From Clostridia bacterium (GTDB taxonomy: Bacteria > Bacillota > Clostridia > TANB77 > CAG-508): a stretch of 37,863 nucleotides of DNA. Made by a program: the position numbers and the translations under genes. Shown piece by piece: positions 31,370 through 37,764 of this stretch. Location of the stretch: contig JAAWKD010000022.1 of NCBI GenBank assembly GCA_022797215.1, forward strand, positions 1 through 37,863, in the 5' to 3' direction. Positions within the stretch are counted from its first letter, which is position 1, and each line of letters begins with the position of its first letter. Below the pieces are notes generated by a model. It had not been told where the DNA came from and did no database searches. It was given only the letters and a program-made list of their open reading frames with translations.

Positions 31370-31537
31370 CTATTCTATATATCTAGTCTCTTCATTCCTA
31401 TCAATGATATTGTGAGCATGTTGCATTTCTTCTGGTGTATATAGTACTACTTTATGCTTTTCATAATTTAATTCTTTTGGAAATCCCTGCTCTCTTGTTA
31501 TTTGCAAGGTATCATTTGTTTCTATATATGATCCCAT
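31370..31537 (-). CDS. Small hypothetical protein (55 aa)
   Basis: It starts MGSYIETNDTLQITREQGFP and ends with a DRNEETRYIE tail. AGAAGGAAGG lies about 10 bases upstream of ATG, and codon use fits the neighbours. The polished ends with a short middle suggest an internally shortened version of a longer conserved protein, but I cannot confirm a family. It is followed 13 bases later by the cupin gene. Confidence 0.55.
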   Translation of the reverse strand: MGSYIETNDTLQITREQGFPKELNYEKHKVVLYTPEEMQHAHNIIDRNEETRYIE

Positions 31538-31565: not shown

Positions 31566-32246
31566 TTAATACCATCCGCCGTCTGCTTTAATGACTTCTG
31601 AATTTATAAAACTAGCATCTTCACTTGCTAAAAATGTTACTACTTTTGCAATCTCCTCTGGTTCTCCAAATCTCTTTACTAAAATTCTCTCCGTCTCCCC
31701 CTTCACAAAATCATCTGAAAGCTCTTTATTCATTTCTGTATTTACCCATCCTGGTGCAACACAATTCACTCTTACATAAGGCGCATATTCAACTGCTGAA
31801 TCATAAGTCAAGCTAATTAAGCCTGCTTTTGACGCATCATACTCTGCACTACTAGGGTAGTATGTATTGATGCCATTAGTACTAGAAATATTAACTATTA
31901 CTCCTCCTTTTTGTTGCATCATTTCTTTTCCCACTAATTTTGTTAAAACAAATGGCGCTATTAAATTGACATCTAAAGTTTTTTTCCAATCTTCAACAGT
32001 CTTCTCTTCAAATTCTTTTATCGCTTTGTTCACCATATTTTTTATCTCTATTTCATTTTCCAAATTTGCTTGAATAGCCAATACTTTTACATTATACATT
32101 TCTTCTATTTGTTGTTTTAATTCTTCTGCTTTTTCTCTACTATTAATATAATTGATTATAATGTCATACCCTTTTTTTGCAAATTCTCTTGCTATTGCTT
32201 TACCTATTCCTCTGGTACTACCTGTAATTAACGCCACCTTATTCAT
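31566..32246 (-). CDS. Short-chain dehydrogenase/reductase lacking the NNAG segment
   Basis: 226 aa, about 20 short of a typical FabG-like SDR. The Rossmann loop TGSTRGIG (8-15), N94 in LDVNL, S121/S122, and the Y136-x3-K140 catalytic pair are all present. Between F79 and E80 the strand with NNAG, which follows KEFG in relatives, is missing; the frame is preserved. This points to an in-frame deletion of about 18-22 codons. Fold stability and activity are doubtful. Strong ribosome binding site (GAGGAGAGG). Confidence 0.85.
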   Translation of the reverse strand: MNKVALITGSTRGIGKAIAREFAKKGYDIIINYINSREKAEELKQQIEEMYNVKVLAIQANLENEIEIKNMVNKAIKEFEEKTVEDWKKTLDVNLIAPFVLTKLVGKEMMQQKGGVIVNISSTNGINTYYPSSAEYDASKAGLISLTYDSAVEYAPYVRVNCVAPGWVNTEMNKELSDDFVKGETERILVKRFGEPEEIAKVVTFLASEDASFINSEVIKADGGWY

Positions 32247-32315
32247 AAATTTCTTCCTCTCCTCTCTTTATATTTCCTTCATTCTATCACAAAGCTTCTC
32301 TTTTTTAAATACCTT

Positions 32316-32344
32316 TTGACATTTTACGTAGTTTGTAGTATAAT
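32316..32344 (+). promoter_or_regulatory. Perfect consensus promoter of a 60-codon gene
   Basis: TTGACA (32316-32321), exact 17-base spacer, TATAAT (32339-32344). It is the best promoter in the window, and it points to the small plus-strand gene starting 31 bases downstream. Confidence 0.92.
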
Positions 32345-32374
32345 AAATTATCTTTTATAGAGGAGGGACATCTT

Positions 32375-32557
32375 ATGTCTACTGATTACGCTGTTCAAAT
32401 CAGAATGGCAAATCTCAACGCAGCTTTTTCCGGACTGGATGCAGGGTTTCTTTCCCAACTGAGCACTAAGGAGCTTCAGGATTTGCTGACCAAGGTTACC
32501 ATAGCTGAGTCCAATATCCGGCAGGAACTGAAAAACGTCAACAAGAAGCCGCATTAA
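32375..32557 (+). CDS. Small protein of unknown function (60 aa), autonomous unit
   Basis: It begins MSTDYAVQIRMANLNAAF and ends RQELKNVNKKPH; predicted to be two amphipathic helices (about 5-25 and 29-52), no cysteines, no signal peptide or membrane segment. GGAGGG lies 9 bases before ATG. It has its own consensus promoter and terminator and is the only plus-strand gene in the region. Codon use (many C/G third positions, CGG, CTG, GCC-type) differs from flanking AT-rich genes, so recent transfer is likely. I do not recognise a family; a small regulator or mobile-element cargo is possible. Confidence 0.75.
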   Translation: MSTDYAVQIRMANLNAAFSGLDAGFLSQLSTKELQDLLTKVTIAESNIRQELKNVNKKPH

Positions 32558-32591
32558 TTCCCTCAACAGCAATTGGTTCTATTGAGCCTTC

Positions 32592-32626
32592 AAAGGGATA
32601 TGTGCATTACTAGCACATATCCCTTT
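32592..32626 (+). terminator. Terminator of the 60-codon gene
   Basis: AAAGGGATATGTGC (32592-32605) pairs exactly with GCACATATCCCTTT (32613-32626) with a 7-base loop. The run after the stem is TTATATAT, not a pure T-run; still a strong hairpin. Confidence 0.75.
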
Positions 32627-32645
32627 GTTATATATGATATACCCT

Positions 32646-33227
32646 TTATATTTTTTTGATTATCTTGCAATTTCTTTTTGTATTTCCTTTTCCCATTATT
32701 GCTTCATAAATGTCTAATATCTCGTCCATAACAACTTTCTCTTCACATTGTAGATTAGAAAATAATAGTGGCGTATATATAACATCAAATAAAAATAAAT
32801 CGAAATTTAGCTCTCTAAATCCTACATTTTCATAAAAATTTTTTCTTTTCTGTCTCTCCATATTTTCCTTTTCATTTTTTCCTAAACCAATTTTTTCAAT
32901 TTCTATAAAGATACCTTTACTCTCTTTTTCTTCCTTGAATAAGAGTTTTAATGCTTTTGTTCCGAATTGCTGATTTCTATATTGTTTCAATATAGCTAAG
33001 TAATCTAAAACAATGTATCCATTTTCTCTAACTCGATTTATTGTCATAAATCCTACCATTTGACTTTGGTATACAATTTTTATAATTCTTACATAACCCT
33101 TTTTATATGCTCTTTTAATTTCTCTAATAGATTTTCGTTCTTCTTCTGGAAACATTTCTATATAATAAGGATATATTTCTTCTTTAAACTGTTCTATTGT
33201 TATATCTTCTAATTGCATATCTTCCAT
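32646..33227 (-). CDS. GNAT-family N-acetyltransferase
   Basis: 193 aa. The GNAT fold is visible: IIKIVYQSQMVGFMTINRV, central strand YIVLDYLAILKQYRNQQFGT, which gives the acetyl-CoA-binding Q/RxxGxG/A-like turn, then FYENVGF. A C-terminal extension of about 40 residues follows. Acceptor substrate unknown. It follows the plus-strand small gene convergently. Confidence 0.8.
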   Translation of the reverse strand: MEDMQLEDITIEQFKEEIYPYYIEMFPEEERKSIREIKRAYKKGYVRIIKIVYQSQMVGFMTINRVRENGYIVLDYLAILKQYRNQQFGTKALKLLFKEEKESKGIFIEIEKIGLGKNEKENMERQKRKNFYENVGFRELNFDLFLFDVIYTPLLFSNLQCEEKVVMDEILDIYEAIMGKGNTKRNCKIIKKI

Positions 33228-35388: not shown

Positions 35389-36210
35389 TTATACAACTAA
35401 AGGTTCTAATTGTTTTATAAAATCTAATATTGTACCTAAAACAATATCTGTTTCTTTTCCTATCCAATTATATCTACTATTTTGAACATTTTCTAAAAAA
35501 TTTGCATTATTAAATATTTTACTCAATTCATTTGCTATTTCAGATGTAGTATTAATTTTTAAATCACTATTAATACAATATATATTAATTAATTTAATTA
35601 ATAATGACTTGTCCATATTTCCTTCGGTTATAAGATAATAAAAATCATATATATCTTTATATCTTGTTGTTCTAATACCATGTTTTAACATAGATAGAAG
35701 TTTTTCAACAAAAATCTGCTCTTTAGTATTTATTAATAATGTCATACTGTTATTAAATACTTCAAAGTTAAACATATATTCTTCTTGTTCTATATCTAAA
35801 TTGTTATGTACTCCAATATCAACTTTAGTTTCTATTTGATTTCCAAATGAATCTTTTAAAACAATATTAACTCTTTTTCCATGATAATCTTGATGTTTTA
35901 AAGGTTTTATTTTTTTATTAACTATTATTGTTATTCCATCATCAATTTGATTTAATTTATCAAACAATAACAATATACTTTTATCTTCTAAAGAATATCT
36001 AATTAAATCTATATCAATATCAACAGTAGCTCGTCTTTTGTCATTAGTTATATTAAACATAACTACTCCACCCTTGACTGTAATATTGTTTCTATAATTA
36101 GATTTTGCAATCTTGCTTAATATTATATCTTGTGCAACTTTTGATGTTGCATAAGCATCTTCATATCCTTTTTCTAAATAAAAGTCTATGCTTTCTAATA
36201 AATTTATCAC
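35389..36210 (-). CDS. AbiEii-type nucleotidyltransferase toxin
   Basis: 273 aa. Motif I K46-G-G, with VVMFNITNDKRRATVDIDID (T62, D64, D66, D68), matches the nucleotidyltransferase AbiEii toxin family. Motif III K-V-D (TKVDIG) and motif IV KDIYDFYYL follow, then a helical C-terminal domain. In AbiE systems this protein inhibits growth, by NTP transfer to RNA in studied cases. GTG start overlaps the antitoxin stop by one base, with GGGAGG upstream. Toxin of the pair with the gene at 36210-36752. Confidence 0.88.
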   Translation of the reverse strand: MINLLESIDFYLEKGYEDAYATSKVAQDIILSKIAKSNYRNNITVKGGVVMFNITNDKRRATVDIDIDLIRYSLEDKSILLLFDKLNQIDDGITIIVNKKIKPLKHQDYHGKRVNIVLKDSFGNQIETKVDIGVHNNLDIEQEEYMFNFEVFNNSMTLLINTKEQIFVEKLLSMLKHGIRTTRYKDIYDFYYLITEGNMDKSLLIKLINIYCINSDLKINTTSEIANELSKIFNNANFLENVQNSRYNWIGKETDIVLGTILDFIKQLEPLVV

Positions 36211-36752
36211 TAAAAAACCTCCCTATGTATAATTTCAAAAATGTTTTTTCCATTAGCAAAACATTCTAAATAATCTGCAAGTAAACTCATATCTATTTCG
36301 TCTACAATTTCTCTGTAATTATTTATTATTTCCTTGTAATAATCAAAAGCAAAAGTATTCTTATTTCTTATTAGTTCAATTAACATTCTCTCTTTGTTAT
36401 AAATATTTATTTGAACATTATTATAATTTACTTGACTTTTTCCAATTTCAAAAAGATGGTTTGCCATAAATATTTGTTCAACTTTTTCATTTTTTATTTT
36501 ACTAACATTGTTCGGAGTTGCAAGGAAATATTTATTAGGTATAACATCTGTTAAACCTAGATAAAAAAATGCACTTTCCGATGTAAAAATAGTATTAGAA
36601 TACTTCTTTACAATATATTCCAAATGATTGTATTTTTCCGTATCAGAATATAAACCTTTCTCGATTTTGTATAATTCTTTATTTTCAACTTTTTTACTTA
36701 TATTATAATTATCTAATCCTTTATCTTTTAATTCTCCGTATTTATATATCAT
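36210..36752 (-). CDS. AbiEi-type antitoxin / transcriptional repressor
   Basis: 180 aa. N-terminal winged-helix part (IYKYGELKDKGLDNYNISKK, ELYKIEKGLYSD), then the C-terminal AbiEi region (FTSESAFFYLGLTDVIPNKY). The start at 36752 (MIYKYGELK) is chosen because the promoter at 36771-36799 would place the transcription start next to the ATG at 36770. AbiEi binds inverted repeats upstream of its own operon and represses it; the large palindrome at 36772-36825 fits that role. Followed with one-base overlap by the toxin. Confidence 0.85.
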   Translation of the reverse strand: MIYKYGELKDKGLDNYNISKKVENKELYKIEKGLYSDTEKYNHLEYIVKKYSNTIFTSESAFFYLGLTDVIPNKYFLATPNNVSKIKNEKVEQIFMANHLFEIGKSQVNYNNVQINIYNKERMLIELIRNKNTFAFDYYKEIINNYREIVDEIDMSLLADYLECFANGKNIFEIIHREVF

Positions 36753-36770
36753 ATTTTTCGCCCCAAACAT

Positions 36771-37443: not shown

Positions 37444-37764
37444 TTATGCTACTTTTATTCCTGTATCTACAACTTCTTTAACAAAAGGATTTGAAACTTT
37501 TTCAAAATCTTCTGTTGTTATTGGGTGTGGCTCTATTCTAGCATCTATGTCCCAAGTCATTCCCATTAGAACTGCCATACAATCATAAATATCTTCAAAA
37601 TCATCAGAAATAACTGCAATATCTATATCGCTATCTTCGTTTTCTGTTCCTTTAGCATAAGAGCCAAATAATATAATTGCTGTAACATTATATTGTTTTT
37701 TTATTTCTTCTATAAACTTGTTTATACTATCTACAATATCTTTATTTATTGTTCTTTCAACCAT
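37444..37764 (-). CDS. MNT-type nucleotidyltransferase (antitoxin-like)
   Basis: 106 aa. Minimal nucleotidyltransferase with ILFGSYAKGTENEDSDIDIA: G34-S35, then D46 and D48, and a third acidic residue near IDARIEP. Such MNT proteins pair with HEPN toxins (HepT/MntA) and add AMP to them. The HEPN candidate lies just downstream, beyond the inserted fragment. AGGAGG lies 7 bases before the ATG. An operator-like palindrome lies immediately upstream. Confidence 0.87.
   Translation of the reverse strand: MVERTINKDIVDSINKFIEEIKKQYNVTAIILFGSYAKGTENEDSDIDIAVISDDFEDIYDCMAVLMGMTWDIDARIEPHPITTEDFEKVSNPFVKEVVDTGIKVA

Follow-up and report, generated by a model that had tools for sequence, protein, structure and literature searches.

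A self-contained, codon-foreign single-gene cassette found at unrelated chromosomal sites in Clostridia

How does a gene of 60 codons come to lie, with a promoter and a terminator of its own, inside an operon of host metabolic genes that are read from the other strand? The question was posed by a 37,863-nucleotide stretch of DNA from a Clostridia bacterium (contig JAAWKD010000022.1; hereafter, the window). An earlier note on this DNA had described a compact autonomous cassette with a perfect promoter, a strong ribosome binding site (RBS) and a hairpin terminator, oriented against its surroundings, and each of these features was recovered. The sigma-A/70 type promoter (TTGACA-17-TATAAT, 32316–32344; -35 at 32316–32321, 17-nt spacer, -10 at 32339–32344) scored 12/12, with the runner-up site in the 3-kb region at 10/12, and its exact pattern was observed once in the whole window against 0.033 expected from base composition. 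It is followed by a leader (AAATTATCTTTTATA) with its RBS (32345–32367; gaggaggg at 32360–32367), by the ORF (32375–32557; ATG at 32375, TAA at 32555–32557; protein MSTDYAVQIRMANL...NKKPH), by a small tetraloop hairpin (GGTTC-TATT-GAGCC, 32575–32588) and by an intrinsic terminator stem-loop (32591–32627; 15 bp, 7 of them GC) whose T-tract is weak (TTATATATGA), all on the plus strand. The flanking SDR oxidoreductase gene (31566–32246) and GNAT acetyltransferase gene (32646–33227) belong to the host operon and are both on the minus strand, antisense to the cassette. The earlier note had overlooked the tetraloop hairpin, the truncation of the GNAT gene and the relatives of the cassette. An open frame of 60 codons is weak evidence by itself (572 of 20,000 shuffles remain open). 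Strong promoter-RBS arrangements are common in the family (the relaxed pattern TTGAC..TATAAT..GGAGG..ATG occurs three times in the window genome and is present in 272 of 292 family genomes), and a strong promoter by itself therefore does not distinguish the cassette.

The site was compared with that of sister species G015, where a 380-aa acetyltransferase gene runs straight into the SDR gene and the site is empty. The window matches the G015 locus (L140) up to L140:901 and resumes at L140:1448; 364 bp of the window (32290–32653), comprising the whole cassette and without counterpart in G015, stand in place of 546 bp that encode the second acetyltransferase domain of the G015 GNAT gene. The GNAT gene of the window has 193 codons versus ~380 in three sister species (G015, G003 and G014), and its stop codon falls inside the inserted block. 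At the block edges no clear target-site duplication was seen (at most a 7-nt T-rich repeat common to both), no recombinase or integrase was associated with the block, and no attC-type site was found at its ends. Integron-type gene cassettes share with the present ones their small genes, variable coding sequence and possible tandem arrangement (as in G014, below); they differ in that every cassette here is driven by a promoter of its own, its ends show neither an integrase nor an attC-like site, and the chromosomal loci are unrelated. In the same operon, a 55-aa ORF (31370–31537) has a counterpart of ~129 aa in G003, indicating a break or frameshift in another operon gene of the window.

Relatives were sought in one genome per species, among 30 genomes of the genus, ~292 of the family and 245 sampled from the class; carrier genomes appear to be metagenome assemblies. 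Searched with the single sequence, the genus genomes gave the window copy and one weak, unrelated match, and the 292 family genomes gave two proteins from another genus (G218, E 2e-8, 44% over 55 aa; G161, E 4e-7), which match each other by BLASTP at E 3e-18. A profile of the three proteins recovered the first cassette protein of G014, a member of the window's genus (G014a, E 0.003), whose cassette anatomy is identical to that in the window; among the 245 class genomes it found no member besides the window genome (G000). Four of the ~292 family genomes carry the cassette. The four related cassettes in three other species occupy unrelated loci, as a tandem pair in G014 and singly in G218 and G161 (the last at a contig end), which bears out the earlier proposal to look for the cassette beside variable neighbours. 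Relatives share the anatomy (TTGACN-17-TATAAT with A, T or G at the variable position, AGGAGG-type RBS, 59–62 codons, terminator stem), and their proteins begin MAYDH, MSYE or MSTDY. The earlier note had named a lost promoter or a broken frame in relatives as grounds for rejecting the gene; both are kept in all relatives found. The second G014 cassette (G014b, L036:9376–9573) follows directly in tandem, has 65 codons and shares the leader; its protein, a putative relative, has no BLAST-detectable similarity to the first G014 protein.

Pairwise identities were 27–44% for amino acids, 57–71% at second codon positions and 30–42% at third positions. Because relatives conserve second positions while third positions are near saturation, the ORF is a real gene and not a chance frame; to judge from these alignments, the cassette proteins are of old divergence under protein-level constraint. 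The window protein is 40% identical to that of G218, from another genus, and 32% to G014a, from its own; this greater closeness across genera fits transfer. Weak profile matches in many genomes to the N-terminus of SigF/SigG-type sporulation sigma factors were set aside as a shared LS.EE..LL helix motif rather than homology.

A second empty site was found at the G014 locus, where the tandem pair (~670 bp of cassette DNA) lies between spoIIP and pgi; these genes are adjacent without a cassette, with both flanks present, in ~18 sister genomes, the genome of the window among them. The spoIIP-pgi gap of G015 may hold a decayed promoter remnant. In the window genome (G000:C36), the gap that holds cassettes in G014 is occupied (L139 ~2130–2205) by a 12-bp inverted repeat (ATTTTATCTTTT/AAAAGATAAAAT) flanking an inner hairpin, which is a MITE-like element or a bidirectional terminator.

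Codon use had been called foreign, and the measurements agree. The GC3 of the ORF is 0.525 versus 0.06–0.23 in 19 host genes, and its per-codon log usage of -0.75 lies ~10 standard deviations below that of 87 sixty-codon blocks of window genes (0.385 ± 0.114; lowest block +0.07). High expression does not account for this GC3, since ribosomal protein genes of the window reach only 0.06–0.18. GC3 is likewise foreign in all five cassettes (0.35–0.54 versus 0.06–0.23 in host genes). Long residence in AT-rich genomes should lower GC3, yet it has not fallen in any of the five copies, so that repeated acquisition from a higher-GC pool is the simplest inference; the GC3 of cassette genes could in principle be maintained by selection. 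The gene is real, conserved and codon-foreign, and sits in a self-contained cassette inserted at unrelated chromosomal sites.

The protein had been proposed to be a small two-helix protein of no known family, and both parts of the proposal held. AlphaFold2 predicted helices at residues 3–19 and 31–56 (pLDDT 81) and at 3–19 and 31–55 when one relative was added (pLDDT 88), a helical hairpin with no strand in any model of the 60-aa protein. With a known family defined as a match above the curated cut-off or at E below 0.001, Pfam, NCBIfam, PHROGs and PADLOC returned nothing significant for the window protein or its relatives. Structure searches retrieved generic helical hairpins of all kinds and nothing specific.

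The earlier note had also suggested a phage-related role, which was not borne out: searches of phage, plasmid and viral-contig collections with the family members and one profile gave no relative. The sole phage match (LR756511, E 0.07) was rejected because no ORF lies at that place. The leader pattern (below) matched viral contigs, where no related ORF accompanied it, and a cassette-skeleton pattern combined with the hairpin returned only the known cassettes plus chance matches in family genomes and two unrelated matches in viral sequences. The neighbours of the cassette in the window are host metabolic genes, with no prophage around.

Morons are single genes whose promoter and terminator are transferred along with them (PMC2147016, PMC6814406). 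Phage morons and the present cassette have in common a single gene of foreign composition with a sigma-70 type promoter and an intrinsic terminator of its own, insertion between or into unrelated genes, and patchy presence in relatives with empty sites in close ones; they differ in that the cassette lies in chromosomal operons, outside any phage or prophage, has no relative in phage collections, and carries a recurrent shared leader and pre-terminator hairpin. Because its neighbours are host metabolic genes and no phage matches it, we describe the cassette as moron-like in its working and do not class it as a phage moron.

With modest confidence, we read the unit as a moron-like single-gene cassette that a bacterial chromosome acquired horizontally and that codes for a helical-hairpin protein which likely binds a partner. 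Mobility of the cassette is well supported; its function we infer from size, fold and distribution. The self-contained unit was inserted antisense into the operon, and the acetyltransferase gene lost its second half. The cassette would travel as a passenger, moved by recombination of the homologous or illegitimate kind, without a transposase of its own. Its source would be a putative mobile gene pool of ~45% GC; neither the phage, plasmid and viral collections nor the sampled genomes yielded a donor or carrier. The kind of genomes that match suggests a host gut origin. Expression from its promoter should be constitutive and high in any Firmicutes host of low GC. The product is predicted to be a soluble helical hairpin (helices of ~17 and 25 residues), probably dimerising, which may be a small inhibitor or adaptor that works in stoichiometric amounts through binding to a macromolecular partner; a competing phage, a conjugative element or a defence complex would be examples of possible targets. 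The family diverges fast and occurs patchily, which suits an accessory role related to conflict. Helical mini-proteins that are strongly expressed, patchy in distribution and fast-evolving include phage and conjugation inhibitors and regulators.

The most serious alternative, which we consider possible but rather unlikely, places the function in the RNA: leader and tetraloop hairpin would be the conserved parts, and the abundant transcript, or its hairpin bound by the protein (for autoregulation or in an RNP), would be the functional entity. The leader is nearly identical in the window and G014a, although their proteins are 32% identical, and similar in G014b; the pattern TATAATN{1,4}ATTATCTTTTN{1,8}AGGA matched only the three cassettes of the genus among its 30 genomes, with no match for a reversed control. 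The small tetraloop hairpin lies downstream of the stop codon, 1–4 nt before the terminator, in four of the five cassettes. In the alignment of these four, 20 of 20 cells are paired and three of the five pairs change on both sides, against at most 45% pairing in slid controls. The sequence GYTCWATTGAGY is confined to these cassettes among 140 loci, and a hairpin of this kind accompanies five of the 112 terminator-like stems counted in related DNA, three of the five being cassettes, which leaves 2 of ~109 other terminator stems. Set against this are the conservation of the ORF at the protein level, the absence of the hairpin from G014b, and the Rfam search, in which no family reached its gathering score; the covariation, seen in only four sequences whose alignment was built on the hairpin itself, is suggestive and not proof. 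The conserved pre-terminator hairpin offers a directly testable protein-RNA hypothesis.

That the gene is a toxin or antitoxin left alone, whether half of a pair or an orphan antitoxin retained for its anti-addiction effect, is very unlikely. Its small size, strong promoter and patchy distribution would suit such a role, which the earlier note had raised, and an AbiEii/AbiEi pair (type IV toxin-antitoxin, abortive infection; by PADLOC) lies 2.7–4.1 kb away in the window (35389–36770). That pair, however, has its own antitoxin and lies outside the inserted block, no Pfam, NCBIfam or PADLOC family was matched, and there is no partner ORF beside any relative or in the 364-bp block, which holds a single ORF. 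An MNT-type nucleotidyltransferase gene (37444–37764) forms with the AbiE pair a defence-type patch 2.7–5 kb from the cassette.

Interference with conjugation, in which the protein would be a stand-alone analogue of a PcfF-type two-helix stalk that binds or titrates a relaxase, we regard as highly improbable. The top PDB profile match was the PcfF stalk (residues 73–114), and this stalk, a two-helix bundle, binds the relaxase PcfG (PMC6514445). The E-value of 0.014 is marginal, the matches that follow are unrelated, and the structure search named nothing specific. Unlike PcfF/MobC-type relaxosome accessory proteins, the cassette protein is of half their length and has no ribbon-helix-helix domain, the NINQ relaxase-binding motif of PcfF is not seen in the cassette family, and the cassette lies near neither oriT nor a relaxase, with no conjugation genes adjoining it in the window. 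The similarity to the PcfF stalk is retained as a lead only. Least probable, and already contradicted, is an ordinary resident gene with expression-driven codon bias, or an ORF that arose by chance between host genes: the family does have many strong-promoter arrangements, but highly expressed ribosomal genes keep a low GC3, empty sites exist, and the gene is absent from nearly all sister species.

On the preferred reading of a moron-like cassette, this small orphan gene belongs to a real and mobile family of genes that has escaped the annotation libraries; a broad literature search found no such cassettes described. More speculatively, and with a probability we put well below even, the cassettes may represent an uncatalogued system in gut-type Clostridia, in which interchangeable, fast-evolving, codon-foreign helical-hairpin genes spread singly or as tandem pairs, framed by conserved control elements: a strong promoter whose leader is specific to the genus, and a covarying pre-terminator RNA hairpin recognised by the protein or a host factor.

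Some smaller observations concern the surroundings of relatives and a further gene in the window's genus. SplB, which adjoins the cassette in G218, was dropped as a partner because cassette neighbours differ elsewhere. A tyrosine integrase by tRNA-Gln in G218 (L037:2036–3291) marks the end of an integrated element ~0.5 kb from the cassette, which lies outside that element. A 77-aa gene in the window's genus (L108:1270–1503; MARRKTYGESLSVWERQKDE...) has a perfect promoter and a GC3 of 0.40, encodes an unrelated protein, and is possibly another foreign single-gene unit.
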